This document shows positions 9,325 through 64,000 of a DNA stretch of 64,000 nucleotides, one piece after another (positions within the stretch are counted from its first letter, which is position 1; each line of letters begins with the position of its first letter). Source of the stretch: Vibrio vulnificus NBRC 15645 = ATCC 27562 (GTDB lineage: Bacteria > Pseudomonadota > Gammaproteobacteria > Enterobacterales > Vibrionaceae); NCBI RefSeq assembly GCF_002224265.1, contig NZ_CP012881.1, positions 2,914,001 to 2,978,000 of the forward strand, written 5' to 3'. Made by a program: the position numbers and the translations under genes. The notes below the pieces were generated by a model. It made no database searches and was not told the DNA's origin. It saw only the letters and a list, made by a program, of their open reading frames with translations.

Positions 9325-9393
9325 TTATCTTCATCTTCGAGGATGCGGTAGCGTGGGCGATTATACCTACAAGTAGATGTATAGAGAGCGTTA
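9325..9393 (+). other. attI recombination site
   Basis: The primary insertion site. Its right end, GAGAGCGTTATG, has the GTTA cleavage core (9390-9393) that joins the first cassette. The stretch 9204-9390 between the LexA box and this core holds no gene. The left limit of attI is estimated. Confidence 0.75.
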
Positions 9394-9744
9394 TGTTTAG
9401 TCACGTAAAATCAGTTGGTTGCATCTTTTCTTTGTTCCTTCGTATTTCTAATTTTGGTCTTGTCGGCAGGTTAACTTCAGTGGTCGCTGTTTTCTGGACT
9501 CCAATTCGTGGGCGCTAAAAATTCAGAGAGTTGCCTCATTGAAATGCAGAGTGTAGGCGAGGTGAGTGAAGTGATTTTGATTTCAAAGTTAAAGCCCGGC
9601 TTTTCGGTTTTCCACGTTAAAACTCAAAGTCAGAACATTCAAAATTATGAGTTAATTCAGCTTTTTAGCGTCTGGTTTTGGTTTGCAAAGGTAAGTCGAG
9701 TTAAGCTATTGGTATCGCAAACTTAACCCTTTGAGCCTTAAACA
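9391..9744. other. ORF-less cassette 1 (type A body)
   Basis: 354 bases with no supported gene, standing in first position next to attI. Type A begins TTATGTTTAGTCACGTAAAA and ends in CTTAAACA before attC. Conserved blocks shared with type B are TTGTCGGCAAG, GAGAGTTGCCTCA and AAGTCGAGTTAA. A short ORF at 9508-9726 is not kept in other copies. This means no protein-coding gene occupies the place nearest the array promoter. Confidence 0.8.
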
Positions 9745-9865
9745 TAACAAGGCGTTTAAGTGGGATTCATGCCGCGTGGCATTTTTGGTATGCGGTGAAT
9801 TTTGGTGGTGAAAGTGGTCTGCGGAAAGTTGGTTTAGGCGGCACTCACCCCTTAACGCAGCGTTA
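9745..9865 (+). repeat. attC of cassette 1 (class 1)
   Basis: End match of 10 bases, TAAACATAAC, with the attI-proximal start of the cassette. Confidence 0.95.
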
Positions 9866-9895
9866 GGTTAATCTATTCAACGTAGGGAGTAATAA

Positions 9896-10369
9896 ATGGA
9901 ATTTGTCCCCGTAAATATTGAAACGGAGGGTACTCTCGATTTGTGTGTTCAATTTCGTCGTGATGCACATTTCGTAAGTTTTGGAGATGACACTAACTTT
10001 AATGTCGGCGAGACTAAAGCGTGGTTTACAAAGCTAAACACATTTGACAATTCTGGCTTTTATCATGTTTTCAAAAACAATGAGGTTATAGGTCAAATAG
10101 AATTCCGAAATGGCTTGCTGGATGAACAAGGAGTGAAGTTCGGCTACATTAACTTACTGTATTTGTTACCAGAATATCGCAATAAAGGTTTAGGTAGTGA
10201 GCTAGAAGACTTTATATTCGCTCAGTTCAAAAACGAGCGATGTGCGTATGCTCACTTGCGCTATACACCTGCTAATTTACAAGCAGTTAGTTTCTATCAT
10301 AAGCATGGTTGGACTGATGTGGGTGAGATTGGCGAGCGCGGACAATTAGCAGAAAAACGATTAACCTAA
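9896..10369 (+). CDS. GNAT-family acyltransferase (cassette 2)
   Basis: 157-residue GNAT fold protein that should transfer an acyl group from acetyl-CoA; the acceptor cannot be read from the sequence. The CoA-binding loop RNKGLG lies at residues 95-100 after a long beta strand (YINLLYLLPEY), and the N..A..FY.K.GW segment at 128-139 is the usual family ending. AGGGAG (9884-9889) precedes the ATG. The stop codon is the first TAA of the attC. It is the first protein-coding gene of the array, second cassette from attI. Confidence 0.8.
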   Translation: MEFVPVNIETEGTLDLCVQFRRDAHFVSFGDDTNFNVGETKAWFTKLNTFDNSGFYHVFKNNEVIGQIEFRNGLLDEQGVKFGYINLLYLLPEYRNKGLGSELEDFIFAQFKNERCAYAHLRYTPANLQAVSFYHKHGWTDVGEIGERGQLAEKRLT

Positions 10370-10487
10370 CAAAGCGTTAAAGAGGGATTCATGCCGCGTG
10401 GCATTTTTGGTATGCGGCGAGTTTTGGTGGTGAAAGTGGTCTGCGGAAGGTTGGTTTAGGCGGCATTCACCCCTTAACGCAGCGTTA
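10367..10487 (+). repeat. attC of cassette 2 (class 1)
   Basis: End match of 12 bases, GATTAACCTAAC. Its first TAA ends the acetyltransferase gene. Confidence 0.95.
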
Positions 10488-10978
10488 GTTGGCAAGAGGG
10501 AAAACGCAGCTATATCGCAAGATCTAGCGGTAAAAGCTTAAAGTTAAAATTGTCGTATCGGCGTTCGAACTCAGTGTTAATCAGCTCGGTAAAAATCCAA
10601 AATTGGCATCGTTGCACTAGTTGACTTGTTCTTTGGCTCTGAGACTTTTTGGGTAACTGAGTTGTACTTTCTTGCTGAAACTTTGCTCTTTGAATTTGTC
10701 GTTTTAAAAGCTGATTTACTTGCTGAAAGGACGTTTTCTTTAGTGTGGTCAATTCTACGTGGTTTCAGCGACTTTGTTGAAAGTCCGCATTGTGAGATTG
10801 GTTTTCCAAAAGCGCTTTTGGGTGTTGTGAGTTCGTTTTCTGCGGCGTTGAAAATTCCAAGTGGTTTCATTGAGTAGCCGCTTTGAGACTACGCCTGACT
10901 AAAGTGCATCAATGCACATAAAGTTTGTTGTTTTAAAAGTTTAAAATAACGTAAAATCAATGTTTTGGGTTTGCCAAC
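10485..10978. other. ORF-less cassette 3 (type C body)
   Basis: 494 bases with ORFs on both strands, none convincing. A sister at 27360-27852 shares long stretches, but the longest minus-strand frame (10577-10870) shifts frame between the two copies, so it is not kept as a protein. Starts GTTAGTTGGCAAGAGG. Confidence 0.7.
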
Positions 10979-11098
10979 TAACAAACTGTTCAAGAGGGAT
11001 TCACAACGCGTGGCATTTTAACTATGCGTTGGTTTTAGTGTTTAAGGCGGTATGCGGTGGCTTCGGTATTGCGTTGTTCACCCCTTAACAGGGCGTTA
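10979..11098 (+). repeat. attC of cassette 3 (class 3 variant)
   Basis: End match of 12 bases, TTGCCAACTAAC. Stem bases are GGG/CCC where most class 3 sites have GTG/CAC. Confidence 0.93.
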
Positions 11099-12816: not shown

Positions 12817-12937
12817 TAACAAAGCGTTCAAGAGGGACTTGGCACGCGTGGCATTTTCGGTTTGCGTTGGGTTCGGTGGTTACGGCACTGTGCGGTAGCT
12901 TTAGTATTGCGTGCCTGCGCCCCTTAACGCGGCGTTA
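12817..12937 (+). repeat. attC of cassette 6 (class 4)
   Basis: End match of 12 bases, ATTACACATAAC. Confidence 0.95.
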
Positions 12938-13287
12938 TGTTTAGTCACGTAAAATCAGTCGGTTGCATCTTTTCTTTGCTTTCTCAGCTTTCTAATTTTG
13001 GTCTTGTCGGCAAGTTACGTTTAGTGGTCGCTGTTTTCTGGACTCCTATTCGTGGGCGCGAAAAATTCAGAGAATTGCCTCATTGAAATTCAGTGCGCTT
13101 GTGAGTCGAATGAAGCTGCCTTAGTTTTAAGTTTGAGCTCAAGTTTTCTGTTTCTCACGCTAAAACTCAAAGTCATTAAAACTAAATTTATGAGTTAATT
13201 CAGCTTTTTAGCGTCTAGTTTTGGTTTGCAAAGGTAAGTCGAGTTAAGCTCTTGGTATCGCAAACTCAACCCTTTGTGTCTTAAACA
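12935..13287. other. ORF-less cassette 7 (type A body)
   Basis: 353 bases, close to the copy at 23160-23512: both carry GTGCGCTTGTGAGTCGAATG and a CAAACTCAACCC ending. No gene seen. Confidence 0.8.
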
Positions 13288-13408
13288 TAACAAGGCGTTT
13301 AAGAGGGATTCATGCCGCGTGGCATTTTGGGTATGAGGTGAATTTTGGTGGTGAAAGTGGTCTGCGGAGGCTTGGTTTAGGCGGCACTCACCCCTTAACG
13401 CAGCGTTA
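13288..13408 (+). repeat. attC of cassette 7 (class 1)
   Basis: End match of 10 bases, TAAACATAAC. Confidence 0.95.
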
Positions 13409-13765
13409 TGCTTAATCAGGTAAAATCAGTGGTTTATGGTTTTTCTTTGCTCCCTCAGCTTTTCAGTTTGGTGTTTGTCGGCAAGTTGGCTGTTTTGAGC
13501 GCTGTTTTTCGGACATCCATTCTTTGGCGCTGGAAATTCCGAGAGTTGCCTCAATCAATTTTTGGGTAAGCGCGAGGTTAGGGCGGTTGGCTCAATCAGA
13601 AATCCATTTATAGGTTTTCAAACTTCAAACCAGATTTGCCAAAATTCCTAGTCTGATTATCAAAACTATGATTCATTTCGGTTTTCTACGTTTTGGTTTT
13701 TGTTTGTAAATCAAAGTCGAGTTAATCTTGTTTTTAGTAAAACGTAAGCCATTGAAGCTTAAGCA
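13406..13765. other. ORF-less cassette 8 (type B body)
   Basis: 360 bases. First type B copy: begins TTATGCTTAATCA, contains GAGCGCTGTTTTTCGGACA and GCGCGAGGTTAGGGCGGTTG, and ends GAAGCTTAAGCA. No gene seen. Confidence 0.8.
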
Positions 13766-16531: not shown

Positions 16532-16647
16532 CAAACGCTTTAAGACGGATTCGCAACGCGTGGCATTTTTACCATGCGTTCATTTTAGTGATTTAGGCGG
16601 TTTGCAGAAGCATCGTATTGCGTTGCTCACCACTTAAGCGGGCGTTA
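16529..16647 (+). repeat. attC of cassette 12 (class 7)
   Basis: End match of 8 bases, CACATAAC. Overlaps the lipoprotein stop codon. Confidence 0.94.
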
Positions 16648-16664
16648 TGCTTAATCAAGTAAAA

Positions 16665-18593
16665 GTGTGCCGTGGGCACAGGATCCTGTTATCTAAGGAA
16701 GGTAAACAGGAGAATGAGCATAAGCTCATGAAGAGATGGAGGTAGGCCCTCCAGAGTCTGCTGTCGGAAGTCGGCTCTAAACCACTTTCAAGTGGCTGTT
16801 ATTAAGAGTAATGGTCAGAAGCGTTGAAGGAAAGTCAGAATAGAATTCTGGCAAGGTAGAGTGCAAGGAGATGAGTAATCCCGAACCCATGTGGACGCGT
16901 CGTTAATTAGAACCAGCATCAAAACTGAGGTCGTTTTATTATCTCAGGACGAGTACACCGGTAAATTCCGAATGCTGGGTGTGCGGTGCTCGGCGTAAAG
17001 TGGGCATGACTTTGCACTAGGCTCTTTGTGGGAACCACGGGAACCAGTCATCACGATGTAAAGGAAGAAATATAAATGACTAAATTCATGAGTATGAGAG
17101 TACCGATGCGTGATACTGGGGCGGAGCAATTCGTAGTAGTGATGAAGGGCTTGTAATGAGCGTGGAGCGAAGGGATTGCGTCAAGTCGGTTGGAACGATG
17201 ACTCAACTGCCGACAGGCAGGAGGAGGTCGCACGGACAACCAAAACCTTTTGCAATATCCAAATGGGATGTAATGACTGCGTTCGAGAAGGTAAAAGCCA
17301 ACAAAGGCGGAGCCGGAGTGGATGGAGTAACGATAGAGGACTTTGAAAAAGACCTTAAAAACAACCTTTACAAGATATGGAACAGAATGTCATCGGGGTC
17401 CTACTTTCCCACACCGGTCGCAGCGGTAAGTATACCGAAAAAGTCTGGTGGAGAGAGGGTATTGGGTATCCCAACGGTCAGCGACCGAGTGGCGCAAACT
17501 GTGGTAAGAGACAAGCTTGAAATCATGCTCGAGCATCACTTCCTAGATGACTCTTACGGCTATCGAGTGGGTAAATCTGCTCATGATGCGATAGAAGTCA
17601 CTAGAAGACGATGTTGGCAGTATGATTGGGTACTAGAGTTTGATATCAAAGGTCTCTTTGACAATATTCGTCATGACTTGTTGATGAAAGCGGTAAAGAA
17701 ACATGTTCAGCTCGCTGAAGAGAGTCAGAGCCGGGATTATCAATGGATAACACTGTACATCGAAAGGTGGTTAGTTGCTCCGTTACAGAAAGCAGATGGG
17801 ACGCAAACAGAAAGAGAGTTAGGAACGCCACAAGGTGGCGTGGTAAGCCCAGTGCTTGCCAACCTATTTCTTCACTATGTTTTTGATAAATGGCTGGAGA
17901 AGAATTATCCAGACAACCCATGGTGTCGATACGCAGATGATGGACTTGTCCATGCAAGGACAAAGCCGAAAGCGGAGAAGTTGAGGGATGAGCTAGCGAA
18001 GCGCTTCAAGGAGTGCGGACTGGAGATGCACCCAATTAAGACGAAGATTGTTTACTGCAAAGATGATATTAGACGAGGGTCAGGTAAGCATATAGAGCAT
18101 AAACAATTTGATTTTCTAGGGTATACCTTCAGGGCCAGAACAAATAAGTGTAAACGTACAGGTCAACTCTATAATCGATTCCTGCCTGCGGTCAGTATGG
18201 CAGCAAAGAAAGTCATGCGAAGGCAAATCAGAGAGCTAAGAGTTCGCCAGGAAACGCAGTACAGCTTAGAGCAATTAAGCAGATGGTTAAGTCCAATGCT
18301 GAATGGTTGGATAAACTACTACGGAAAGTTCAGGCGAAGCGAATTAGACTCGGTATTCAGACACTTCAACAAGACTTTAGTACGTTGGGCGAGAAGGAAA
18401 TTCAAATCGCTAAAATGTCACAAAAGTCGAACCGTAGCGTTCTTTGATAAGCTATCGGCTCAATGCCCTAGATTGTTTCCTCACTGGAAATTTGGTTCAG
18501 CAAGAAGTTTTACTTGATGGGAGCCGTATGAGCTGAGAGGTTCACGTACGGTTCTGCGAGAGGCTGCTGGGGTGGTTCCGGTGGCCTACTCAC
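16665..18593 (+). mobile_element. Group II intron
   Basis: About 1929 bases. It begins GTGTGCC, fitting the GUGYG start rule, and ends ...CTACTCAC, fitting the AY end rule. Domain V is plain at 18521-18554: GAGCCGTA pairs with TACGGTTC and holds the AGC triad. A domain VI-like stem (GGCTGCTGG / CCGGTGGCC with wobble pairs) follows. Domains I-III should lie in 16665-17155, a stretch without a gene. The flanks are the two halves of a type B ORF-less cassette, so the target is 20 bases inside a cassette and not an attC. The exact 3' edge may be off by one base. Confidence 0.88.
17156..18517 (+). CDS. ltrA: Group II intron reverse transcriptase/maturase
   Basis: 453 residues. It helps the intron fold and copies it at a new site. 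Reverse-transcriptase blocks in order: GVDGVTIEDF, the SIPKKSGGERVLGIPTVSDRV region, LEFDIKGLFDNI, GTPQGGVVSPVLANLFL, the active site WCRYADDGLVH (YADD with two aspartates), then LGYTFR. The maturase (X) domain follows with WLSPMLNGWINYYGKF. The protein ends soon after (FPHWKFG), so the C-terminal HNH endonuclease domain is absent, as in several bacterial intron classes. All catalytic residues are present, so it may be active. Domain V starts 3 bases after the stop. Confidence 0.95.
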   Translation: MSVERRDCVKSVGTMTQLPTGRRRSHGQPKPFAISKWDVMTAFEKVKANKGGAGVDGVTIEDFEKDLKNNLYKIWNRMSSGSYFPTPVAAVSIPKKSGGERVLGIPTVSDRVAQTVVRDKLEIMLEHHFLDDSYGYRVGKSAHDAIEVTRRRCWQYDWVLEFDIKGLFDNIRHDLLMKAVKKHVQLAEESQSRDYQWITLYIERWLVAPLQKADGTQTERELGTPQGGVVSPVLANLFLHYVFDKWLEKNYPDNPWCRYADDGLVHARTKPKAEKLRDELAKRFKECGLEMHPIKTKIVYCKDDIRRGSGKHIEHKQFDFLGYTFRARTNKCKRTGQLYNRFLPAVSMAAKKVMRRQIRELRVRQETQYSLEQLSRWLSPMLNGWINYYGKFRRSELDSVFRHFNKTLVRWARRKFKSLKCHKSRTVAFFDKLSAQCPRLFPHWKFGSARSFT

Positions 18594-18936
18594 CTCAGTT
18601 GGTTATGGTTTTTTCTTTGTTCCCTCGGCTTTTCAGTTCGGTGTTTGTCGGCAAGTTGGCTTTTTTTGAGCGCTGTTTTTCGGACGCTTATTCTTTGGTG
18701 CTGAAAACTCTGAGTGTTGCCTCAATCGATTTTCGGAGAAGCGCGAGGTTAGGGTGGTTGGCTCAATCAGAAATCCATTTCTAGGTTTTCAAACTTCAAA
18801 CTGGATTAGCCAAAATTCCGAACCTGAATATCAAAACTATGATTCATTTCGGTTTCCTACGTTTTGGTTTTTGTTTGTAAATCAAAGTCGAGTTAATCTT
18901 GTTTTTAGTAAAACGTAAGCCATTGAAGCTTAAGCA

Positions 18937-20390: not shown

Positions 20391-20510
20391 CAAGCAATTT
20401 AAGAGGGATTCACAACGCTTGGCACTTTTGCTTCTACTTCAGTTTTAGTGTTTATGGCACAATGCTTTAGGTATGGGGGAAGGCGTTGTTCACCCCTTAA
20501 TTGGGCGTTA
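20388..20510 (+). repeat. attC of cassette 15 (class 2)
   Basis: End match of 13 bases, TTTTGCTTATAAC, one of the two longest in the array. Supplies the stop codon. Confidence 0.95.
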
Positions 20511-20860
20511 TGCTTAATCACGCAAAATCAGTGGGTTATGATTGTTCTTTGTTCCCTTGGCTTGTGAGTTTTGTGTTGCTCGGCAAGTCGACTTCGTTTG
20601 GCGCTGTTTTCCGGACACTTATTCTTTGGCGCTAAAAATTCTAAGAGTTGCCTCAGTCAATTTTCGGGCAAGCGCGAGGTTAGGGCGGTTGGCTCAATCG
20701 GAAATTTGATCTTAGGTTTTTGAGTTTTGACTGCCAAAGTTCAAAGTCTGATTTTCAAAATTATGAGTCATTTCTGTTTTCTACGTTTTGGTTTTTGTTT
20801 GTGAACCAAAGTCGAGTTAATCTTGGCTTGGGTAAAACGTAAGCCATTGAAGCTTAAGCA
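20508..20860. other. ORF-less cassette 16 (type B body)
   Basis: 353 bases; a sub-branch with CGCAAAATCAGTGGGTTATG and GGCTTGTGAGTTTTGTG, like the B part of the chimeric cassette at 58901. No gene seen. Confidence 0.8.
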
Positions 20861-22564: not shown

Positions 22565-22685
22565 TAACAAGGCGTTTAAGAGGGATTCATGCCGCGTGGC
22601 ATTTTTGGTTTGCGGTTGGTTTTGGTGATGAAAGTGGTATGCGGAAGGTTGGTTTGTGCGGCACTCACCCCTTAACGCAGCGTTA
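22565..22685 (+). repeat. attC of cassette 19 (class 1)
   Basis: End match of 10 bases, AAGCCATAAC. Confidence 0.95.
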
Positions 22686-23041
22686 TGCTTAATCACGTAA
22701 AATCAGTTGGTTATGGTTTTTCTTTGTTCCCTTAGCTGATTAGTTTTGTGTTTGTCGGCAAGTTGGCTGTTTTTAGCGCTGTTTTTCGGACACTTATTCT
22801 TTGGCGCTAGAAATTCAGAGAGTTGCCTCAATCAATTTTTGGGCCAGCGCGAGGTTAGGGCGGTTGGCTCAATCAGAAATCCATTTCTAGGTTTCAAACT
22901 TCAAATTGGATTTTGCCAAAATTCCAAGTCTGATTCTCAAAACCATGATTCATTTCGGTTTTCTACGTTTTGGCTTTGCGTGTAAATCTAAGTCGAGTTA
23001 ATCTTGTTTTTAGTAAATCGTAAGCTATTGAATCTTAAGCA
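22683..23041. other. ORF-less cassette 20 (type B body)
   Basis: 359 bases; first of six ORF-less cassettes in a row (22683-25410). No gene seen. Confidence 0.8.
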
Positions 23042-23162
23042 TAACAAGGCGTTTAAGTGGGATTCATGCCGCGTGGCATTTTTGGTTTGCAGTGAGTTTT
23101 GGTGGTGAAAATGGTCTGCAGAAATTTGGTTTATGCGGCACTCACCCCTTAACGCGGCGTTA
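23042..23162 (+). repeat. attC of cassette 20 (class 1)
   Basis: End match of 11 bases, TTAAGCATAAC. Confidence 0.95.
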
Positions 23163-23512
23163 TGTTTAGTCACGTAAAATCAGTTGGTTGCATCTTTTCT
23201 TTGCTTTCTCAGCTTTCTAATTTTGGTCTTGTCAGCAAGTTAACTTCAGTGTTCGCTGTTTTCTGGACTCCAATTCGTGGGCGCGAAAAATTCAGAGAAT
23301 TGCCTCATTGAAATTCAGTGCGCTTGTGAGTCGAATGAAGCTGCCTTAGTTTTAAGTTTGAGCTCAAGTTTTCTGTTTCTCACGCTAAAACCCAAAGTCA
23401 TTAAAACTAAATTTATGAGTTAATTCAGCTTTTTAGCGTCTGGTTTTGGTTTGCAAAGGTAAGTCGAGTTAAGCTCTTGGTATCGCAAACTCAACCCTTT
23501 GTGTCTTAAACA
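23160..23512. other. ORF-less cassette 21 (type A body)
   Basis: 353 bases, nearly the same as cassette 7. No gene seen. Confidence 0.8.
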
Positions 23513-23633
23513 TAACAAGGCGTTTAAGCGGGATTCATGCCGCGTGGCATTTTTGGTTTGTAGTGAGTTTTGGTGGTGAAAGTGGTCTGCGGCAGCTTGG
23601 TTTATGCGGCATTCACCCCTTAACGCAGCGTTA
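23513..23633 (+). repeat. attC of cassette 21 (class 1)
   Basis: End match of 10 bases, TAAACATAAC. Arms of the inner part differ from cassette 7 although the body is alike. Confidence 0.95.
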
Positions 23634-23985
23634 TGCTTAATCACGTAAAATCAGTGGTTTATGGTTTTTTGCTCCCTCAGCTTTTCAGTTTGGTGTTTGT
23701 CGGCAAGTTGGCTGTTTTGAGCGCTGTTTTTCGGACATCAATTCTTTGGCGCTGAAAATTCTGAGTGTTGCCTCATTCTATTTTCGGGCAAGCGCGAGGT
23801 TAGTACGGCTGGCTCAATCAGAAATCCATTTTTGGTTTTTAAACTCCAAGCCAGTTTTGCCAAAATCCGAGCCTGATTATCAAAACTATGATTCATTTCG
23901 GTTTTCTACGTTTTGGTTTTTGTTTGTGATTCAAAGTCGAGTTAATCTTGTTTCCAGAAAAACGTAACCCATTGAAGCTTAAGCA
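23631..23985. other. ORF-less cassette 22 (type B body)
   Basis: 355 bases. Carries GGTTAGTACGGCTGGCTC where most copies have GGTTAGGGCGGTTGGCTC. No gene seen. Confidence 0.8.
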
Positions 23986-24106
23986 TAACAAAGCGTTTAA
24001 GTGGGATTTGGCACGCGTGGCATTTTCAGTTTGCGTTGGGTTCAGTGATTAAGTCGCTGTGCGGTAGCTTTTGTAGTGCGTGCCTGCACCCCTTAACGCG
24101 GCGTTA
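23986..24106 (+). repeat. attC of cassette 22 (class 4)
   Basis: End match of 11 bases, TTAAGCATAAC. Class 4 variant with GGGATTTGGCACGCG and GCGTGCCTGCACCCC. Confidence 0.95.
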
Positions 24107-24462
24107 TGCTTAATCACCTAAAATCAGTGGTTTATGCTTTTCTTTGTTCCCTAGGCTTTTCAGTTTTGTGTTTGTCGGCAAGTCGGCTTTTTTGAGCGCT
24201 GTTTTTCGGACTCTTATTCTTTGGTGCTGGAAATTCAGAGAATTGCCTCATTCAATTTTCGGGCAAGCGCGAGGTTAGGGCGGTTGGCTCAATCAGAAAT
24301 CCATTTCTAGGTTTTCAAACTTCAAACTAGATTTGCCAAAAATCCGAGCCTGATTATCAAAACTATGATTCATTTCGGTTTTCTACGTTTTGGCTTTTGT
24401 TTGTGAATCAAAGTCGAGTTAATCTTGGTTCTGGTCAAACGTAACCCATTGAAGCTTAAGCA
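24104..24462. other. ORF-less cassette 23 (type B body)
   Basis: 359 bases; begins TTATGCTTAATCACCTAAAA like those at 54153 and 61115. No gene seen. Confidence 0.8.
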
Positions 24463-24583
24463 TAACAAGGCGTTTAAGCGGGATTCATGCCGCGTGGCAT
24501 TTTTAGTTTGCGGTGAGTTTTGGTGGTGAAAGTGTTCTGCGGAAAGCTGGTTTAGGCGGCATTCACCCCTTAACGCAGCGTTA
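24463..24583 (+). repeat. attC of cassette 23 (class 1)
   Basis: End match of 11 bases, TTAAGCATAAC. Confidence 0.95.
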
Positions 24584-24936
24584 TGTTTAGTCACGTAAAA
24601 TCAGTTGGTTGCATCTTTTCTTTGTACTCTCGGCTTTCTAATTTTGGTCTTGTCGGCAGGTTAACTTCAGTGTTCGCTGTTTTCTGGACTCCAATTCGTG
24701 GGCGCTAAAAATTCAGAGAGTTGCCTCATTAAAGTTCAGTGCGTTTTTGAGTCGAATGAAGCGATCTTAGTTTCAAAGTTTGAGCACCAGTTTTTCGGTT
24801 TCTCACGCTAAAACTCAATATCAGTACAATCAAATTTATGAGTTAATTCAGTTTTTTAGCTTCTAGTTTTGGTTTGCAAAGTTAAGTCGAGTTAAGCTAT
24901 TGGTTTCGTAAAACTTAACCCTTTGTGTCTTAAACA
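24581..24936. other. ORF-less cassette 24 (type A body)
   Basis: 356 bases; a sub-branch with GAAGCGATCTTAGTTTCAAA and CTCAATATCAGTACAATC. No gene seen. Confidence 0.8.
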
Positions 24937-25057
24937 TAACAAGGCGTTTAAGAGGGATTCATGCCGCGTGGCATTTTTGGTATGCGGTTGGTTTTGGTGG
25001 TGAAAGTGGTCTGCGGAAGGTTCGTTTATGCGGCATTCACCCCTTAACGCGGCGTTA
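24937..25057 (+). repeat. attC of cassette 24 (class 1)
   Basis: End match of 10 bases, TAAACATAAC. Confidence 0.95.
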
Positions 25058-25410
25058 TGTTTAATCGCGTAAAATCAGTTGGTTGCATCTCTTCTTTGCA
25101 TTCTCGGCTTTCTAATTTTGGTCTTGTCGGCAAGTTAACCTCATTGGGCACTGTTTTCTGGACTCCAATTCGTGGACGCTAAAAATTCAAAGAGTTGCCT
25201 CATTGAAATTCAGTGCGTTTGTGAGTCGAATGAAGCGATGTTAGTTTCAACGTTTGAGCACCAGATTTCGGTTTCTCTCGCTAAAATCTCAATATAAGTA
25301 CAATCAAATTTATGAGTTAATTCAGCTTTTTAGCTTCTAACTTTGGTTTTCAAAGATAAGTCGAGTTAAGCTCTTGGTATCGCAAAACTTAACCCTTTGA
25401 GTCTTAAACA
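25055..25410. other. ORF-less cassette 25 (type A body)
   Basis: 356 bases; begins TTATGTTTAATCGCG, one base nearer to complement its own end than most type A copies. No gene seen. Confidence 0.8.
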
Positions 25411-31959: not shown

Positions 31960-31997
31960 TATGTTTGAATTGGCTAGTGTACAAAAGGAAACAAAGA

Positions 31998-43933: not shown

Positions 43934-44055
43934 TAACAAACAATTTAAGAGGGATTCCCAACGCTTGGCATTTTTGCTTCTACTTCAAATTTAGTGGTTA
44001 CGGCACAATGTTTTAGGTTGGGTGGTCGCGTTGCTCACCCCTTAATTGGGCGTTA
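43934..44055 (+). repeat. attC of cassette 53 (class 2)
   Basis: End match of 12 bases, AAATCACATAAC. Confidence 0.95.
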
Positions 44056-44407
44056 TGTTTAGTCACGTAAAATCAGTTAGTTGCATCTTTTCTTTGTTCC
44101 TTCGTATTTCTAATTTTGTTCTTGTCGGCAAGTTAAATTCAGTGGTCGCTGTTTTCTGGACTCCAATTCGTGGGCGCTAAAAATTCAGAGAGTTGCCTCA
44201 TTGAATTCCAGAATGTAGGCGAGGTGAGTGAAGTGATTTTGATTTCAAAGTTAGAGCCCCATCTTTTCGATTTCTCACGTTATAAGTCAAAGTCGGCACA
44301 ATCAAAATTATGATTTAATTCAGCTTTTTAGCGTCTGGTTTTGGTTTGCAAAGGTAAGTCGAGTTAAGCTATTGGTATCGCAAACTTAACCCTTTGAGCC
44401 TTAAACA
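44053..44407. other. ORF-less cassette 54 (type A body)
   Basis: 355 bases, of the sub-branch of cassettes 1 and 35 (CAGAATGTAGGCGAGGTGAG). No gene seen. Confidence 0.8.
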
Positions 44408-44527
44408 TAACAAGGCGTTTAAGAGGGATTCATGCCGCGTGGCATTTTTAGTTTGCGGTGATTTTTGTGGTGAAAGTGGTCTGCAGAAGCTTGGTTTAGG
44501 CGGCATTCACCCCTTAACGCGGCGTTA
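44408..44527 (+). repeat. attC of cassette 54 (class 1)
   Basis: End match of 10 bases, TAAACATAAC. Confidence 0.95.
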
Positions 44528-44875
44528 GCTTAAAACAATAAAAATCAATTGTTTGCAGCCTGTTTTTTCTTCCTTTGGCCATTCGTTCAGGTTTCTCGGC
44601 AAATTAACATTGTTTGCCAACGCGAGTTTTGAGCAGTTGCCTCAATTGAGTTTTTGGGTTACTCGAGGTTAGCCAGATTGGCGCAAAGTTGCTTTGGAAG
44701 TTTTGCTTTCGCTTTGAGTTCTTAGAAAATGATCTATCAAGTTTTGCTGCATTTCAAAGCACATGAAAGGCTACAAAATTTGAGTTGTTTCGGGTTTTGA
44801 GGTTCAAGCGGTTTGTTGGTTTTCCAAATCGGTTTAATCTCTGGCTTGGGAAATCTAAGGTGCTGAAATTTAAGC
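44525..44875. other. ORF-less cassette 55 (type D body)
   Basis: 351 bases, a remote relative of types A and B. It keeps the block order (AAAATCAATTGTTT, TCTCGGCAAATTAAC, GAGCAGTTGCCTCAATTGAG, CGAGGTTAGCCAGATTGGC) at the same spacing though most bases differ. No gene seen. Confidence 0.7.
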
Positions 44876-48238: not shown

Positions 48239-48356
48239 CAAGGCGTTTAAGAGGGATTCATGCCGCGTGGCATTTTTGGTTTGCAGTGAGTTTTGGTGGT
48301 AAAAGTGGTCCGCGGCAGCTTGGTTTATGCGGCATTCACCCCTTAACGCGGCGTTA
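48236..48356 (+). repeat. attC of cassette 61 (class 1)
   Basis: End match of 9 bases, GCACATAAC. Provides the stop codon. Confidence 0.95.
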
Positions 48357-48713
48357 TGCTTAATTAAATAAAATCAGTGGTTTATGGTTTTTCTTTGTTC
48401 CCTTGGCTTTGCAGTTCGGTGTTTGTCGGCAAGTTGGCTTTTTTGAGCGCTGTTTTCTGGACACTTATTCTTTGGCGCTAAAAACTCTGAGAGTTGCCTC
48501 AGTCAATTTTCGGGTAAGCGCGAGGCTATGGCGGTTGGCTCAATCAGAAATCCATTTCTAGGCTTTCAAACTTCAAACTAGATCTGCCAAAGTTCCGAGC
48601 CTGAATATCAAAACTATGAGTCATTTCGGTTTTCTAATCTTTGTCTTTTGTTTGTGAATCAAATTCGAGTTAATCTTGGTTCTAGTTAATCGTAAGCCAT
48701 TGAAGCTTAAGCA
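48354..48713. other. ORF-less cassette 62 (type B body)
   Basis: 360 bases; begins TTATGCTTAATTAAATAAAA. No gene seen. Confidence 0.8.
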
Positions 48714-50188: not shown

Positions 50189-50307
50189 CAAACAATTTAA
50201 GAGGGATTCCCAACGCTTGGCATTTTTGCTTCTACTTCAAGTTTAGTGTTTATGGCACAATGCTTTAGGTTGGGTGGTAGCGTTGCTCACCCCTTAATTG
50301 GGCGTTA
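50186..50307 (+). repeat. attC of cassette 64 (class 2)
   Basis: End match of 10 bases, GTGCATATAAC counted from its last ten. Provides the stop codon. Confidence 0.95.
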
Positions 50308-50658
50308 TGTTTAGTCACGTAAAATCAGTTGGTTGCATCTTTTTTTTGCTTTCTCAGCTTTCTAATTTTGGTCTTGTCGGCAAGTTACGTTTAGTGGTCG
50401 CTGTTTTCTGGACTCCAATTCGTGGGCGCTAAAAATTCAGAGAGTCGCCTCATTTAAGTTCAGTGCGTTTTTGAGTCGAATGACGCGATCTTAGTTTCAA
50501 AGTTTGAGCTCCAGTTTTCGGTTTTTTACGCTAAAACTCAATATCAGTAAATTCAAATTTATTAGTAAATTCAGTTTTTTAGCGTCTGGTTTTGGTTTTT
50601 AAAGATAAGTTGAGTTAAGCTTTGGTATCGCAAAACTTAACCCTTTGAGCCTTAAACA
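50305..50658. other. ORF-less cassette 65 (type A body)
   Basis: 354 bases; carries GAGAGTCGCCTCA where other copies have GAGAGTTGCCTCA. No gene seen. Confidence 0.8.
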
Positions 50659-50778
50659 TAACAAGGCGTTTAAGCGGGATTCATGCCGCGTGGCATTTTT
50701 GGTTTGCGGTGATTTTTGTGGTGAAAGTGGTGTGCGGAAACTTGGTTTAGGCGGCACTCACCCCTTAACGCAGCGTTA
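50659..50778 (+). repeat. attC of cassette 65 (class 1)
   Basis: End match of 10 bases, TAAACATAAC. Confidence 0.95.
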
Positions 50779-51128
50779 TGCTTAATCATTTTAAAGCAGT
50801 GGTTTAGTGTTCTTCTTTGCTCCTTTGGCTTTTCAGTTTTGTGCTTGTCGGCAAGTTGGTTTCAGTGGGCACTGTTTTCTGGACACTTATTCTTTGGCGC
50901 TAAAAATTCTGAGAGTTGCCTCAGTCAATTTTCGGGCAAGCGTGAGGTTAGGGCGGTTGGCTCAATCAGAAATTTGATCTTAGGTTTTTGAGCTTTGACA
51001 GCCAGAGTTCAAAGTCTGATTCTCAAAATTATGAGTCATTTCTGTTTTCTACGTTTTGGTTTTTGTTTGTGGATCAAAGTCGAGTTAATCTTGGTTCTGG
51101 TAAAGCGTAAGTCATTGAAGCTTAAGCA
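50776..51128. other. ORF-less cassette 66 (type B body)
   Basis: 353 bases. It holds GGTTTCAGTGGGCACTGTTTTCTGGACAC, a mix of type A (CAGTGGGCACTGTTTTCTGG) and type B wording. No gene seen. Confidence 0.8.
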
Positions 51129-52553: not shown

Positions 52554-52673
52554 TAACAAACGCTTCAAGAGGGACAGCCAACGCGCGGCATTTTTACTAT
52601 GCGTTGGTTTTTGTGATTATGGTGTTATGCGGAAAGTCAGTAGTAGCGTTGGCTGCCCCTTAAGCGGGCGTTA
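52554..52673 (+). repeat. attC of cassette 68 (class 6)
   Basis: End match of 11 bases, ATAAGCCTAAC. Confidence 0.95.
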
Positions 52674-53023
52674 TGCTTAATCACCTAAAATCAGTGGGTT
52701 ATGGTTTTTCTTTGTTCCCTCGGCTTTTCAGTTTTGTGTTTGTCGGCAAGTTGGATTTTTTGAGCGCTGTTTTTCGGACACTTATTCTTTGGCGCTGGAA
52801 ATTCAGAGAGTTGCCTCATTCAATTTTCGGGTAAGCGAGAGATTAGGCTGGTTGGCTCAATCAGCAATTTGATCTTAGGTTTTTGAGTTTCAGCAGCCAA
52901 ATTTCAAAGTCTGATTTTCAAAATCATGAGTTATTTCGGTTTTCTACATTTTGGTTTTTGTTTGTAAATCAAAGTCGAGTTAATCTTGTTTTTAGTAAAA
53001 CGTAAGCCATTTAAGTTTAAGCA
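52671..53023. other. ORF-less cassette 69 (type B body)
   Basis: 353 bases; GAGAGATTAGGCTGGTTGG replaces the common CGCGAGGTTAGGGCGGTTGG. No gene seen. Confidence 0.8.
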
Positions 53024-53143
53024 TAACAAGGCGTTTAAGTGGGATTCATGCCGCGTGGCATTTTTGGTTTGCGGTGCGTTTTGTGCTGAAAGTGGTCTTC
53101 GGGAAGTTGATTTATGCGGCACTCACCCCTTAACGCAGCGTTA
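53024..53143 (+). repeat. attC of cassette 69 (class 1)
   Basis: End match of 11 bases, TTAAGCATAAC. Right arm has several changes (GTGCGTTTTGTGCTGAAAG). Confidence 0.93.
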
Positions 53144-53471
53144 TGCTTAATCACGTAAACCAGTGGTTTGTGAATTTTTCTTTGTTCCCTCGACTTTTCA
53201 GTTTGGTGTTTTTCGGCAAGTTGACTTTATTGGGCGCTGTTTCTGGACACCTATTCTTTGGCGCTAAAAATTCAGTGAGTTGCCTCAGTTAAGTTCTGTG
53301 CAAGTGCGTGGTTAGGGTGTTTGGTTTACTCTGCAATTTGTTCGTTGGTTTTGTGAGTTCTAATTGCAAAAATCTGTGTGATTTCTGGTTTTTAGGTTTA
53401 AGTTTTTGTGCGTAAATCTAAGTCGAGTTACTCTTGGTTTTGGTAAAATTGTCCGCTTTGGAGCTCAAGCA
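53141..53471. other. ORF-less cassette 70 (diverged type B body)
   Basis: 331 bases. Starts as type B but the second half has diverged (GTGCAAGTGCGTGGTTAGGG, TGATTTCTGGTTTTTAGG). No gene seen. Confidence 0.75.
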
Positions 53472-54035: not shown

Positions 54036-54155
54036 TAACAAGGCGTTCAAGAGGGATTCATGCCGCGTGGCATTTTTGGTATGCGGTGGTTTTGGTGGTG
54101 AAAGTGGTCTGCGGAAAGTTGGTTTAGGCGGCATTCACCCCTTAACGCGGCGTTA
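54036..54155 (+). repeat. attC of cassette 71 (class 1)
   Basis: End match of 12 bases, AATACTTATAAC. Confidence 0.95.
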
Positions 54156-54505
54156 TGCTTAATCACCTAAAATCAGTGGTTTATGGTTTTTCTTTGTTCC
54201 CTAGGCTTTTCAGTTTTGTGTTTGTCGGCAAGCTGGCTTTTTTGAGCGCTGTTTTTCGGACACTTATTCTTTGGCGCTAGAAATTCAGAGAATTGCCTCA
54301 TTCAATTCTTGGGCAAGCGCGAGGTTAGGGCGGTTGGCTCAATCAGAGATTTGATCTTAGGTTTTTTCGTTTTAGCTGCCAAATTTCAAAGTCTGATTTT
54401 CAAAATCATGAGTCATTTCAGTTTTTTGGTTTTTGGCTTTTGTTTGTGAATCAAAGTCGAGTTAATTTTGTTTTTAGTAAAACGTAAGCCATTGAAGCTT
54501 AAGCA
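54153..54505. other. ORF-less cassette 72 (type B body)
   Basis: 353 bases, very close to the IS-split copy at 61115. No gene seen. Confidence 0.8.
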
Positions 54506-56725: not shown

Positions 56726-56848
56726 TAACAAAGCATTTAAGAGTGATTCCCAACGCTTGGCAGTTTTGGTGCTAATCGTTGGGTTTTGTGTTTAAGGTGG
56801 TATGTTTTAGCTTCGTGGTGGCGTTGCTCACACCTTAATGCGGCGTTA
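56726..56848 (+). repeat. attC of cassette 76 (class 5)
   Basis: End match of 11 bases, AACAACATAAC. Confidence 0.95.
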
Positions 56849-57197
56849 TGCTTAATCACGTAAAATCAGTGGTTTATGGTTTTTCTTTGTTCCCTTAGCT
56901 TTTCAGTTTTGTGTTTGTCGGCAAGTCGGCTTTTTTGAGCGCTGTTTTTCGGACATCAATTCTTTGGCGCTGGAAATTCAGGTAATTGCCTCAATCGATT
57001 TTCGGGTAAGCGCGAGGTTAGGGCGGTTGGCTCAATCAGCAATTTGATCTTAGGTTTTTGAGTATCAGCAGCTAAATTTCAAAGTCTGATTTTCAAAATC
57101 ATGAGTTTTTTCGGTTTTCTACGTTTTGGTTTTTGTTTGTAAATCAAAGTTGAGTTAATCTTGTTTCCAGAAAACGTAACCCATTGAAGCTTAAGCA
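56846..57197. other. ORF-less cassette 77 (type B body)
   Basis: 352 bases, with TATCAGCAGCTAAATTTCAAAG shared with cassette 69. No gene seen. Confidence 0.8.
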
Positions 57198-58780: not shown

Positions 58781-58903
58781 TAACAAGCAATTTAAGAGGG
58801 ATTCACAACGCTCGGCACTTTTGCTTCTACTTCAAATTTAGTGTTTATGGCACAATGCTTTAGGTTTGGGCGGTGGCGTTGTTCACCCCTTAATTGGGCG
58901 TTA
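58781..58903 (+). repeat. attC of cassette 79 (class 2)
   Basis: End match of 11 bases, ATATGCATAAC. Confidence 0.95.
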
Positions 58904-59252
58904 TGTTTAGTCACGTAAAATCAGTTGGTTGCATCTTTTCTTTGCTCCCTTGGCTTGTGAGTTTTGTGTTTGTCGGCAAGTTGGCTTCGTTTGGCGCTGC
59001 TTTCTGGACATCTATTCTTTGGCGCTGGAAATTCAGAGAATTGCCTCAGTCGATTTTCGAGTAAGCGCGAGGTTGGTTCGACTGGCTCAATCAATATTTT
59101 GATCACAGGTTTTTGGGCTTGATTGCCGAAATTCAAAGTCTGTTTTTCAAATCTATGAGTCGTTTCAGTTTTTTAGTTCTTGGCTTTTGTTTGCGAATCA
59201 AAGCTGAGTTAATCTTGGTTTTTGTAAAACGTAAGCCCTTGAAGCTTAAACA
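58901..59252. other. ORF-less cassette 80 (A/B chimera)
   Basis: 352 bases. The first about 45 bases are type A (TTATGTTTAGTCACG, AGTTGGTTGCATCTTTTC), then the body is type B (GGCTTGTGAGTTTTGTG, GCGCGAGGTT, AAACGTAAGC) and the end returns to the type A form CTTAAACA. No gene seen. Confidence 0.8.
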
Positions 59253-60521: not shown

Positions 60522-60643
60522 TAACAAGCAATTTAAGAGGGATTCTCAACGCTTGGCACTTTTGCTTCTACTTCAAATTTAGTGTTTACGGTACAATGCG
60601 TTAGGTTGGGTGGTGGCGTTGCTCACCCCTTAATTGGGCGTTA
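60522..60643 (+). repeat. attC of cassette 82 (class 2)
   Basis: End match of 9 bases, GTACATAAC. Confidence 0.95.
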
Positions 60644-60996
60644 TGTTTAATCACGTAAAATGAGTTGGTTGCATCTTTTCTTTGCATTTTCGGCTTTCTA
60701 ATTTTGGTCTTGTCGGCAAGTTAACTTCAGTGTTCGCTGTTTTCTGGACTCCAATTCGTGGGCGCTAAAAGTTCAGAGAGTTGCCTCATTTAAGTTCAGT
60801 GCGTTTGTGAGTCGAATGAAGCGATCTTAGTTTCAAAGTTTGAGCTCAAGTTTTCGGTTTCTCACGCTAAAATTCAAAGTCATTACGACTAAATTTATGA
60901 GTTAATTCAGCTTTTTTAGCGTCTGGTTTTGGTTTTCAAAGGTAAGTCGAGTTAAGCTCTTGGTTTCGTAAAACTTAACCCATTGAGTCTTAAACA
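60641..60996. other. ORF-less cassette 83 (type A body)
   Basis: 356 bases, with TGAGTTGGTTGCATCTTTTC and GCATTTTCGGCTTTC. No gene seen. Confidence 0.8.
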
Positions 60997-61117
60997 TAAC
61001 AAGGCGTTTAAGCGGGATTCATGCCGCCTGGCATTTTTGGTATGCAGTGAGTTTTGGTGGTGAAAGTTGTCTGCAGAAGCTTGGTTTATGCGGCATTCAC
61101 CCCTTAACGCGGCGTTA
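60997..61117 (+). repeat. attC of cassette 83 (class 1)
   Basis: End match of 11 bases, TTAAACATAAC. Left arm GCCGCCTGG instead of GCCGCGTGG. Confidence 0.94.
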
Positions 61118-61434
61118 TGCTTAATCACCTAAAATCAGTGGTTTATGGTTTTTCTTTGTTCCTTAGGCTTTTCAGTTTTGTGTTTGTCGGCAAGCTGGCT
61201 TTTTTGAGCGCTGTTTTTCGGACACTTATTCTTTGGCGCTAGAAAATCAGAGAGTTGCCTCATTCAATTTTCGGGCAAGCGCGAGGTTAGGGCGGTTGGC
61301 TCAATCAGAGATTTGATCTTAGGTTTTTTCGTTTTAGCTGCCAAATTTCAAAGTCTGATTTTCAAAATCACCCCCTCTGGCAGGATAGTTGTCACTGTTA
61401 AAATTTAACCAGTTTGGGTGGTAATGAGTGAGTT

Positions 61435-61935
61435 TTGAATCGCATTCCAACAGAAAGAAAAGAAGCCATATTGAAGAAGCTACTGCCTCCTTATTCAATG
61501 TCTGTAAGCCAAGTAGCAAAAGAGGAAGGTATTAGCACAGCCACCCTGTATCATTGGCGGCAGCAACTTAGACGTTCAGGAGCCGCTGTGCCAAATAGTC
61601 ATACTTCATCAGAGCAGTGGTCTGCTCAAACTAAACTCGCCATTGTCGCTGAAACTTACTCGATGACGGAGAATGAACTCAGTCAGTATTGTCGCGAGAA
61701 AGGCTTGTTCCCTGAACAAGTGCAAGGTTGGCGAAGTGAGTGTATGCAAGGGTTTATGTCTGCCAAAGAGCGTGAGGCTGAAGCCAAGAAACAAGCTAAA
61801 GCTGACAAACTTGAAATTAAAGAGCTGAAAAAAGAGTTACGCTTTAAAGAAAAAGCGTTAGCGGAAACGGCGGCGCTATTGGTGCTTCGAAAAAAGCTGA
61901 GAGCCTTTTACGGGGAAGAGCCAGAGGAAGATTAA
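61435..61935 (+). CDS. IS3-family transposase OrfA
   Basis: 166 residues from a TTG start. A helix-turn-helix (MSVSQVAKEEGISTATLYHWR, about 22-43) binds the element ends, and the second half is a leucine-rich coiled coil (KADKLEIKELKKELRFKEKAL) for multimer formation. Near its end the heptamer A AAA AAG (61890-61896) is in the right register for a -1 ribosomal frameshift; the -1 frame is open from there into orfB, which would give the OrfAB transposase. Confidence 0.88.
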   Translation: MNRIPTERKEAILKKLLPPYSMSVSQVAKEEGISTATLYHWRQQLRRSGAAVPNSHTSSEQWSAQTKLAIVAETYSMTENELSQYCREKGLFPEQVQGWRSECMQGFMSAKEREAEAKKQAKADKLEIKELKKELRFKEKALAETAALLVLRKKLRAFYGEEPEED

Positions 61936-61958
61936 CCTCAACCGATGAAAGGCAATAC

Positions 61959-62969
61959 TTGCTCACTCTTATCCACGATGCCAAGCGAAGTGGCTGCCGT
62001 CTAGAGTACGCCTGCAATGAAGTTCAAATCGACTTGAGAACGTATCGACGCTGGTATCAGCGAGGTGAAATACGGACAGACAAAAGACCGACCTGCGTTA
62101 GACCTGTGCCTGCTAACAAGCTATCACCGCAAGAGCGCAATGCGATTATTGAGGTGTGCAACCGCCCTGAATACGCAAGTTTACCACCAACTCAAATTGT
62201 CCCGACGTTGCTTGATAACGGTGAGTATATTGCTTCAGAGTCGAGCTACTATCGGGTTTTGAAAGCAGAAGGTCAGCTTCATACCCGAGGTCGTCAGCGA
62301 AGTCGACAAAGGCAGGCCAAGCCAACAAGTTATACGGCAACAGGTCCCAATCAGGTGTACACATGGGACATTACGTACTTGCCATCTGTGGTTAAGGGAC
62401 AGCACTATTACCTCTACGTGATTGAAGATATCTATAGCCGAAAAATCGTTGGCTATGATGTCTACGAATGTGAATGCGGTGAGTTAGCGTCACAGTTATT
62501 GCAGCGGACGCTGATGCGCGAGCAATGCTTTAATCAGCCACTGGTACTTCACTCGGACAATGGTGCGCCAATGAAGTCACTGACGTTCAGAGCGAAAATG
62601 GATGAGCTTGGTATTACTTCATCATACAGTCGCCCGAGAGTCAGTGATGATAACCCGTATGTTGAGTCGCTGTTCCGCACAGTGAAGTACATGCCTAGCT
62701 GGCCAACAAAAGGCTTTGAACAACTCGATGCAAGTCGTAGTTGGGTTGAGGCGTTCGTACGTTGGTACAACACCGAGCACAAGCACAGTAAGTTAAATTA
62801 CGTTACGCCATCAGAGCGTCACAGTGGTAAAGATAGCGAGATTTTAAGACGTCGTTCGGATGTGTTGTCGGTAGCAAGAGAGCGACACCCAGAGCGTTGG
62901 TCAGGCAAGATAAGGAACTGTGAACCCGTTGGTGAGGTTCATCTAAATCCAGAAAGAAAAGCCGCTTAA
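61959..62969 (+). CDS. IS3-family transposase OrfB (DDE catalytic part)
   Basis: 336 residues if read alone from TTG 61959, but probably made as a fusion with OrfA by -1 frameshifting. Integrase core with the DDE triad: Asp in YTWDITYLP, Asp in LHSDNGAPM, Glu in NPYVESLFRTVKY. An HTH-like region lies at the N-terminus (CNEVQIDLRTYRRWYQRG). All parts are intact, so the element may be able to move. Confidence 0.9.
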   Translation: MLTLIHDAKRSGCRLEYACNEVQIDLRTYRRWYQRGEIRTDKRPTCVRPVPANKLSPQERNAIIEVCNRPEYASLPPTQIVPTLLDNGEYIASESSYYRVLKAEGQLHTRGRQRSRQRQAKPTSYTATGPNQVYTWDITYLPSVVKGQHYYLYVIEDIYSRKIVGYDVYECECGELASQLLQRTLMREQCFNQPLVLHSDNGAPMKSLTFRAKMDELGITSSYSRPRVSDDNPYVESLFRTVKYMPSWPTKGFEQLDASRSWVEAFVRWYNTEHKHSKLNYVTPSERHSGKDSEILRRRSDVLSVARERHPERWSGKIRNCEPVGEVHLNPERKAA

Positions 62970-63109
62970 TAACTAAGCGAATGATGACAACTACCTTGAA
63001 AAACGCCGATCATGAGTCATTTCAGTTTTTTGGTTTTTGGCTTTTGTTTGTGAATCAAAGTCGAGTTAATCTTGTTTTTAGTAAAACGTAAGCCATTGAA
63101 GCTTAAGCA

Positions 63110-63230
63110 TAACAAGGCGTTTAAGCGGGATTCATGCCGCGTGGCATTTTTGGTATGCGGTGAGTTTTGGTGGTGAAAGTGGTCTGCGGAAGCTTGGTTT
63201 AGGCGGCATTCACCCCTTAACGCAGCGTTA
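63110..63230 (+). repeat. attC of cassette 84 (class 1)
   Basis: End match of 11 bases, TTAAGCATAAC, with the cassette start at 61114 on the far side of the IS. Confidence 0.95.
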
Positions 63231-63586
63231 TGCTTAATCACGTAAAATCAGTGGTTTATGGTTTTTCTTTGTTCCCTAGGCTTTTCAGTTTTGTGTTTGT
63301 CGGCAAGCCAGCTTTTTTGAGCACTGTTTTTCGGACACTTATTCTTTGGCGCTGGAAATTCAGAGAATTACCTCATTCAATTCTCGGGCAAGCGCGAGGT
63401 TAGGGCGGTTGGCTCAATCAGAAATCCATTTTTAGGTTTTCAACTCCAAGCCAGTTTTGCCAAAATCCGAAGTCTGATTATCAAAACTATGATTCATTTC
63501 GGTTTTCTACGTTTTGGTTTTTGTGTGTAAATCAAAGTCGAGTTAATCTTGGTTTTGGTCAAACGTAACCCATTGAAGCTTAAGCA
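63228..63586. other. ORF-less cassette 85 (type B body)
   Basis: 359 bases; carries GAGAATTACCTCA where others have GAGAATTGCCTCA. No gene seen. Confidence 0.8.
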
Positions 63587-63707
63587 TAACAAGGCGTTTA
63601 AGCGGGATTCATGCCGCGTGGCATTTTGGGTTTGCGGTGAGTTTTGGTGGTGAAAGTGGTCTGCAGAAGCTTGGTTTATGCGGCATTCACCCCTTAACGC
63701 GGCGTTA
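63587..63707 (+). repeat. attC of cassette 85 (class 1)
   Basis: End match of 11 bases, TTAAGCATAAC. Confidence 0.95.
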
Positions 63708-64000
63708 TGTTTAGTCACGTAAAATCAGTTGGTTGCATCTTTTCTTTGTTCCTTCGTATTTCTAATTTTGGTCTTGTCGGCAAGTTAAATTCAGTGGTCG
63801 CTGTTTTCTGGACTCCAATTCGTGGGCGCTAAAAATTCAGAGTGTTGCCTCATTTAAGTTCAGTGCGTTTGTGAGTCGAATGAAGCGATGTTAGTTTCAA
63901 CGTTTGAGCACCAGTTTTCGGTTTCTCACGCTAAAACTTCAATATCAGTACAATCAAAATTATGAGTTAATTCAGCTTTTTAGCTTCTAACTTTGGTTTT
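63705..64000. other. ORF-less cassette 86 (type A body), cut by window end
   Basis: First 296 bases of a type A copy, close to cassettes 24 and 25. No gene seen. Its attC lies outside the window. Confidence 0.75.

Follow-up and report, generated by a model that had tools for sequence, protein, structure and literature searches.

What do integron cassettes carry when they hold no open reading frame (ORF) and keep nearly the same length from copy to copy? The question is raised by a stretch of 64,000 nucleotides of Vibrio vulnificus NBRC 15645 = ATCC 27562, positions 2,914,001-2,978,000 of the larger of the two contigs of this 5.0 Mb genome (the whole stretch is called the window hereafter). 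A previous reading, made from the letters alone (the sequence-only reading), had noticed here a large family of such cassettes. We have found that this family is part of a superfamily of ORF-less cassettes of the Vibrionaceae, built of one or two modules with two boxes at a family-specific spacing. Judging from the way in which they change together, the two boxes probably pair. Our best explanation, a tentative one to which we give a little under an even chance, is that the members of the family are mobile integron cassettes carrying a non-coding nucleic acid, most likely RNA, instead of a protein gene.

One family makes up a third of the array

With an attC profile, 226 good attC sites were found over the 157 kb of the whole array, of which the window covers about one third. 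Attending to both the attC and the family profile, the window contains 85 complete cassettes, 29 of them family members, and in addition one member truncated where the window ends, in agreement with the 30 of 86 cassettes counted before. Among the 29 complete members are one with a group II intron, one with an IS3-type element and one distant relative of 351 bp. The insert within body 28 (61115-63109) carries two transposase-like reading frames, and we take it to be an IS3-type element. In the complete array the family reaches 74 of 226 cassettes (73 of the 225 located between two attC sites, and the first cassette), that is, about one third. Its bodies are flanked by attC sites and placed head to tail, the arrangement by which integron gene cassettes are recognized.

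The near-constant length described from the window extends to the whole array, in which uninterrupted bodies measure 331-370 bp (median 354, n=66), or about 475 bp per cassette when the attC is included. The three blocks that had been quoted as conserved are all found in the window well above chance: TTGTCGGCAAG has 29 matches with up to one mismatch (1.3 expected) and GAGAGTTGCCTCA 29 with up to two (1.05 expected), an enrichment of 20 to 30 times, and AAGTCGAGTTAA has 39 with up to two mismatches (6.7 expected), an enrichment of 6 times. The inner distance from TCGGCAA to TTGCCTCA, the 5' and the 3' box, is 60-62 nt in 72 of 73 family copies. AAGTCGAGTTAA is a block of the family level, and only TCGGCAA and TTGCCTCA are superfamily-wide. 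The chimeric copies proposed earlier are real, body 26 starting as type A and continuing as type B. A repeat outside the family joins 31939-32238 and 38234-38533 (98% identical, 6.3 kb apart) and is apparently a duplicated cassette of another kind.

A superfamily of cassettes in the Vibrionaceae

Partial matches to the family profile led to further ORF-less cassettes, of about 517 and 463 bp with two modules and of about 351, 430, 405 and 350 bp with a single one. Seven clusters take in 196 of the 210 distinct bodies that hold the motif; the other 14 are a few more relatives together with chance coding cassettes. In a joint alignment the modules of the superfamily can be aligned over about 165 nt, best at TCGGCAA and TTGCCTCA, a conservation that is partly by choice since the modules had been picked by a loose form of these boxes. 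Against the 60-62 nt of the family, the inner distance between boxes in the other clusters is mostly 34, 59 or 63-65 nt.

A pattern scan matched 103 of 223 Vibrio genomes (the reversed pattern, used as control, gave 16 matches in all), an upper figure because some single matches are clearly chromosomal and due to chance. A stricter pattern, with one control match, was found in 69 of 315 Vibrionaceae genomes belonging to 2 of 13 genera; in the second genus, possibly Aliivibrio, it appeared in 6 of 14 genomes. Class-wide it matched 3 of 369 genomes, one of them the source genome and the other two probably chance. At the gathering thresholds of the Rfam families the window matches only the group II intron, six loci of relatives have no match whatsoever, and a permissive scan of the run of six consecutive copies gave one match, at chance level. 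No description of the superfamily, of its boxes or of their pairing appeared in the literature searched, outside of which lie most subscription papers and supplements.

Two boxes that change in step

The TTGCC contained in TTGCCTCA is the complement of the GGCAA contained in TCGGCAA. In order to count the versions of both boxes we have used a profile search that does not demand the motif, although its seed was motif-chosen. It returned 639 module matches, 597 of them near-full and 539 of those distinct. The boxes read GGCAA/TTGCC in 483 modules and AGCAA/TTGCT in 92, with the mixed versions AGCAA/TTGCC and GGCAA/TTGCT in two modules each; in a recount of the cores, 14 of the 639 have a gap. 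Both versions coexist in the 463-bp type, whose first module is AGCAA/TTGCT and whose second is GGCAA/TTGCC. Across 30 genomes chosen for richness there were 368 G/C doubles (in 29 of the 30), 184 A/T doubles (one match lying far from any array) and, as mixed boxes, 3 A/C and 6 G/T, the six G/T matches apparently located outside arrays. When covariation was assessed in 362 modules below 93% identity, the G/C-A/T position scored highest among all pairs, with 260, a value that none of 60 tree simulations reached (their maximum was 240). Little covariation support comes from the other four pairs of the box stem, and the wobble intermediates among the 639 modules display no clear strand bias.

The stem is also predicted to be somewhat more probable than in modules with a shuffled interior. 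Of 160 modules sampled from the 362, we examined the 145 that have one of the two main box versions. On the sense strand the predicted stem probability was 0.74, compared with 0.68 when the interior was shuffled, with 103 of the 145 modules above their shuffles (p 8e-4); on the antisense strand it was 0.63 compared with 0.62 (p 0.5). Expression of non-coding cassettes in Vibrio sp. DAT722, reported in PMC2945992, we also count towards an RNA.

A number of results weigh against this interpretation. The covariation check that had been proposed gave a mixed outcome: the top score lies above the simulated null, but the tree holds only one or two double changes, one of them at a node with support 0.27, and in an earlier and smaller set of 111 motif-chosen modules the box pair reached only E 2.5 and the best pairs lay elsewhere. 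Two more pairs reach E <0.05 in the 362 modules and form no helix with the box pair, and recombination breaks the tree assumption on which the test is founded. Of the 49 modules with neither main core, 29 break the pairing, 19 have a wobble and one has other standard pairs. The whole-body fold obtained with RNAalifold is weak (sense-strand z from +0.3 to -2.1) and was rejected as a candidate structure, and in 6 of 7 clusters it is the antisense strand that gives the more negative consensus fold of whole bodies. Shuffling the interior of the modules does not significantly worsen their folding energy, the stem excess is reversed in one length class, and in the length class of the family it is present on both strands (sense 0.83 against 0.59, antisense 0.78 against 0.55). 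Finally, the longest run of conserved columns in the bodies, 9, falls inside the range of permuted alignments. A short local hairpin just 3' of the 5' box was likewise discarded as weak, its one informative pair having standard pairs at 0.64 compared with 0.46 expected.

Some of these observations would fit an element that works as DNA, either a protein-binding site or a single-stranded fold used in cassette recombination or replication. The boxes are an inverted repeat, integron recombination uses folded single strands (the bottom strand of attC), and both the better antisense folding of whole bodies and the two-stranded stem excess of the family length class point in the same direction. Over the 145 modules, however, the excess reaches significance for the sense strand and not for the antisense strand, and we regard a DNA-level role as quite improbable.

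The bodies are non-coding

Family bodies are non-coding by their pattern of indels and substitutions. Of the 130 internal deletions seen in 119 sequences of several species, 120 have a length that is not divisible by three, and the variability of the alignment columns shows no periodicity of 3 bases (p 0.66). These two results carry the verdict, since frame length alone does not show that a body is non-coding: the median length of the longest frame on the sense strand is 53 codons, compared with 41 in shuffled bodies (95th percentile of the shuffles, 68), frames of at least 30 codons span the middle of most family copies, and about one half of the copies have frames that reach 50 codons, so that not all of them would pass the 150-bp cut-off of PMC1382264. 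An ORF of at least 70 aa is absent from 61 of the 66 uninterrupted copies, and the other 5 have a frame of at least 70 codons. Pfam gave no match for three of the longest frames (71-79 codons), and no wider protein search was made. The claim that no reading frame is kept therefore holds on the grounds of indels and substitutions, not of frame length.

Could the bodies be the decayed remains of one coding gene? On the sense strand their frames slightly exceed those of shuffled bodies in length, and one gene-less cassette of V. parahaemolyticus was a decayed gene according to PMC11014356. The indels that are not in threes, the missing periodicity and the three long frames that lack a Pfam family (the only protein search made) largely contradict such an origin, which the sequence-only reading had already dismissed and to which we attach next to no probability. 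Coding on either strand was rejected for the same reasons. We had considered a minus-strand peptide starting MRQ... from the 3' box because TTGCCTCAT backwards reads ATGAGGCAA; neither its length, nor its first base (T, A or G), nor its continuation is kept, which speaks against a decayed gene as well. A 13-aa sense peptide of the type-B copies is missing from type A, as read by eye from the alignment. Low-variation columns of the alignment cluster (79 neighbouring pairs, 56 expected, at most 70 in 2000 permutations), though as noted their longest run is not unusual.

Annotation may blur this picture. All five coding sequences (CDSs) annotated as 'DUF3265 domain-containing protein' that we inspected are translations of attC, and more than one frame is represented among them. 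Two were scanned against Pfam without any match, so that the label rests on the annotation of the records. Annotators can place a DUF3265 CDS in the attC that adjoins a gene-less body, and such annotation may hide gene-less cassettes from surveys that choose cassettes without annotated genes.

The promoter alternative

A different function is suggested by reporter assays. Of 13 gene-less V. vulnificus cassettes assayed by Blanco et al. (2024; PMC11014356), 11 had a sense-strand reporter activity of 5- to 20-fold, fragments of lacZ had none, and the promoters of these cassettes could not be predicted in silico. Along these lines, the bodies studied here might be kept because they drive the downstream cassette, the boxes being incidental or part of a non-canonical promoter. 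The hexamer TAAAAT, which resembles a -10 element, is found 15 bases from the start of the cassette in 58 of the 66 copies, though no good -35 accompanies it, and the best sense-strand sigma-70 score of the family has a mean of 7.58 compared with 7.01 in shuffles, 15% of the members being above the 95th percentile of the shuffles. Nevertheless, the run of six copies has one promoter-like site where 3.8 are expected, the best scores in the other superfamily clusters are at or below those of shuffles, and the family equals the other cassettes of the array. TAAAAT is missing from some of the clusters, and a promoter leaves the paired change of the boxes unexplained. The tested cassettes measured 491-666 bp, compared with about 475 bp for the family with its attC, which makes it uncertain that any of them belongs to the family. 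We consider it rather doubtful that promoter activity is what these cassettes are kept for; the element may possibly be a promoter cassette in addition. A sigma-70 promoter inside the body or bridging the attC was rejected, as no clear excess was seen, and a built-in promoter of canonical type is hence not favoured, with the proviso that the published assays found prediction in silico to fail. Terminator-like sites in the six-copy run number 8 compared with 4.1 expected, 7 of them in attC and one at a 5' box.

Three roles had been put forward at the outset (RNA, promoter or selfish element). The covarying box pair and the stem probability speak for the first, the weak whole-body fold speaks against it, and the sigma-70 scans give no clear excess for the second. 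The three are not fully separable from sequence, and that the family acts as RNA is what we infer.

Dispersal and exchange among copies

Family members are scattered through the array at random, with 23 adjacent pairs compared with 23.4 expected, and tandem amplification was rejected on this basis. Nor is there extra complementarity between cassette ends that might aid recombination, above that of other cassettes. A type-B copy was matched in 22 of 227 Vibrio genomes, at 91-93% identity in several, a type-A copy was matched by five plasmid records at 66-93%, and a phage record of Vibrio anguillarum (MK672802, L062:2501-2847) contains a family copy that is 90% identical. The same record holds further cassette-like bodies. 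Integrase-mediated mobility receives indirect support from the random dispersal and from the relatives met with elsewhere, be it in other genomes, in plasmid records or in a phage record.

Of the 58 own copies in the joint alignment, 41 have their closest match within the array and not among the foreign copies (medians 94.6% and 92.9%, the foreign set being partial). The copies of the array also recombine, exchanging short tracts. In those that start as type B, r2 drops from 0.24 (<40 bp) to 0.04 (>80 bp), and in those that start as type A it does so more slowly, from 0.19 to 0.05 by 160 bp; over all copies pooled it does not fall because types A and B differ at both ends. The group II intron is telling in this respect. 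It is 1,930 bp long, encodes a reverse transcriptase/maturase of 453 aa (NCBIfam TIGR04416) and is present in five family copies at the same site, AAAA^TCAG, and in the same orientation. The five introns are 99.95-100% identical and their host bodies 84-94%; the 5' flank common to the five is resembled by one of the 66 uninterrupted copies. Two histories would account for this: tracts from other copies replaced the sequence of the bodies following a recent cassette duplication, or a single site received the intron by repeated homing. Within the intron, 11 nt at the end of the reading frame (18508-18518) are perfectly complementary to the final 11 bases of the 5' exon at the insertion site; this string was among 13 tried, each with a chance of about 5e-4.

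Since copies recombine and the intron is so much more alike than its hosts, the constant length and the conservation at the family level are in part a product of concerted evolution, an account that fits the wider superfamily less easily. The high copy number, the random dispersal, the exchange among type-B-start copies and the near-identical introns in diverged bodies are all what one would expect of selfish or hitch-hiking cassettes devoid of host function, whose likeness is maintained by duplication and by recombination among copies. Events inside a single array, recombination included, leave unexplained why the same boxes change in step across otherwise dissimilar families, and a selfish element may itself need the boxes for its spread, so that this option overlaps with that of an RNA. 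We judge a purely selfish nature unlikely.

Relation to described cassettes

The sequence-only reading could not tie the family to a known element, and here it has to be amended. Boucher et al. (2006; PMC1382264) report a non-coding family of many paralogues, with 45 copies in one V. vulnificus array and 34 in another, which is probably the family studied here, an identity drawn from the description and not from a comparison of sequences. Both are non-coding, multi-copy and found in V. vulnificus arrays. The same text states that non-coding cassettes match their homologues over the whole length and have homologues only in vibrios, that they number 107 of 219 cassettes in V. vulnificus CMCP6 and up to one half in some Vibrio arrays, and proposes selfish, promoter or RNA roles; unlike the present analysis it describes, as far as it is accessible, no superfamily, boxes or pairing. 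What is already known is the paralogous non-coding family, probably the same one, and what seems to be new are the superfamily, the boxes and the pairing.

The gene-less promoter cassettes of PMC11014356 are likewise ORF-less and come from Vibrionaceae arrays, including V. vulnificus. They were chosen for having no annotated gene and no ORF >70 aa and are defined by reporter activity and not by sequence, and the accessible text describes no family or conserved box; their sizes differ from ours as given above. The sRNA-Xcc1 cassette of Xanthomonas (PMC12444791) offers a precedent for a non-coding RNA on an integron cassette that has moved between species. It differs in that it also encodes SymE, both being oriented against the array, and it was compared with the present family by description only.

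Coordinates of the family and associated features

Table 1. Family bodies in the window and features associated with them. Positions are those of the window, except where a contig (C1) or locus (L) is indicated.
Feature	Position	Strand	Remarks
Body 1	9391..9744	+	type A; family profile match, alignment
Body 2	12935..13287	+	type A
Body 3	13406..13765	+	type B
Body 4	16645..18936	+	type B, split by group II intron
Body 5	20508..20860	+	
Body 6	22683..23041	+	first of six consecutive members
Body 7	23160..23512	+	type A
Body 8	23631..23985	+	
Body 9	24104..24462	+	type B, worked example
Body 9, -10-like hexamer TAAAAT	24119..24124	+	same position in 58/66 uninterrupted array members
Body 9, 5' box TCGGCAA	24175..24181	+	
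Body 9, 3' box TTGCCTCA	24243..24250	+	TTGCC within it can pair with GGCAA of the 5' box
Body 10	24581..24936	+	type A
Body 11	25055..25410	+	type A
Body 12	29535..29866	+	short type A
Body 13	31021..31375	+	type A
Body 14	31494..31838	+	type A
Body 15	32678..33029	+	type B
Body 16	42284..42635	+	type B
Body 17	44053..44407	+	type A
Body 18	44525..44875	+	distant relative, 351-bp subfamily, other box spacing
Body 19	48354..48713	+	
Body 20	50305..50658	+	type A
Body 21	50776..51128	+	
Body 22	52671..53023	+	
Body 23	53141..53471	+	diverged short copy
Body 24	54153..54505	+	
Body 25	56846..57197	+	
Body 26	58901..59252	+	chimera, start type A, remainder type B
Body 27	60641..60996	+	type A
Body 28	61115..63109	+	split by presumed IS3-type element
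Body 29	63228..63586	+	
Body 30	63705..64000	+	type A, cut by window end
Group II intron, copy in the window	16665-18594		in body 4
Group II intron, other copies in the same genome (starts)	C1:2989638, 2996371, 3030497, 3060418		
DUF3265-annotated CDSs over attC	L061:655-783, L061:2845-3003, L063:1836-1958, L064:3367-3468, L064:4629-4751		

What the cassettes may do

If the cargo is an RNA, it would be transcribed by read-through or from a weak start near the 5' end of the cassette, where TAAAAT is found without a good -35, and more likely from the sense strand, on which most of the published promoter activity lies. The RNA would close a 5-bp stem around some 60 nt, and this stem or its flanks may act on the neighbouring cassettes or on their mRNAs. 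The cassettes would spread by integrase-mediated movement, and their near-constant length would reflect shared descent together with continual recombination among copies.

Why non-coding cassettes are kept was asked in 2006 and has been answered in part by promoter assays. A broader proposal, possible though less than probable in our opinion, is that they include an old superfamily of mobile RNA genes in Vibrionaceae integrons, gene-less and made of one or two box-paired modules. Many non-coding cassettes of Vibrio can now be placed in a single superfamily, for which two boxes are named and a pair between them is predicted, and owing to these boxes and their pair the selfish, promoter and RNA readings become testable by a few base changes. 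Were the proposal true, the integron would carry regulatory RNAs alongside genes, as a platform for both.

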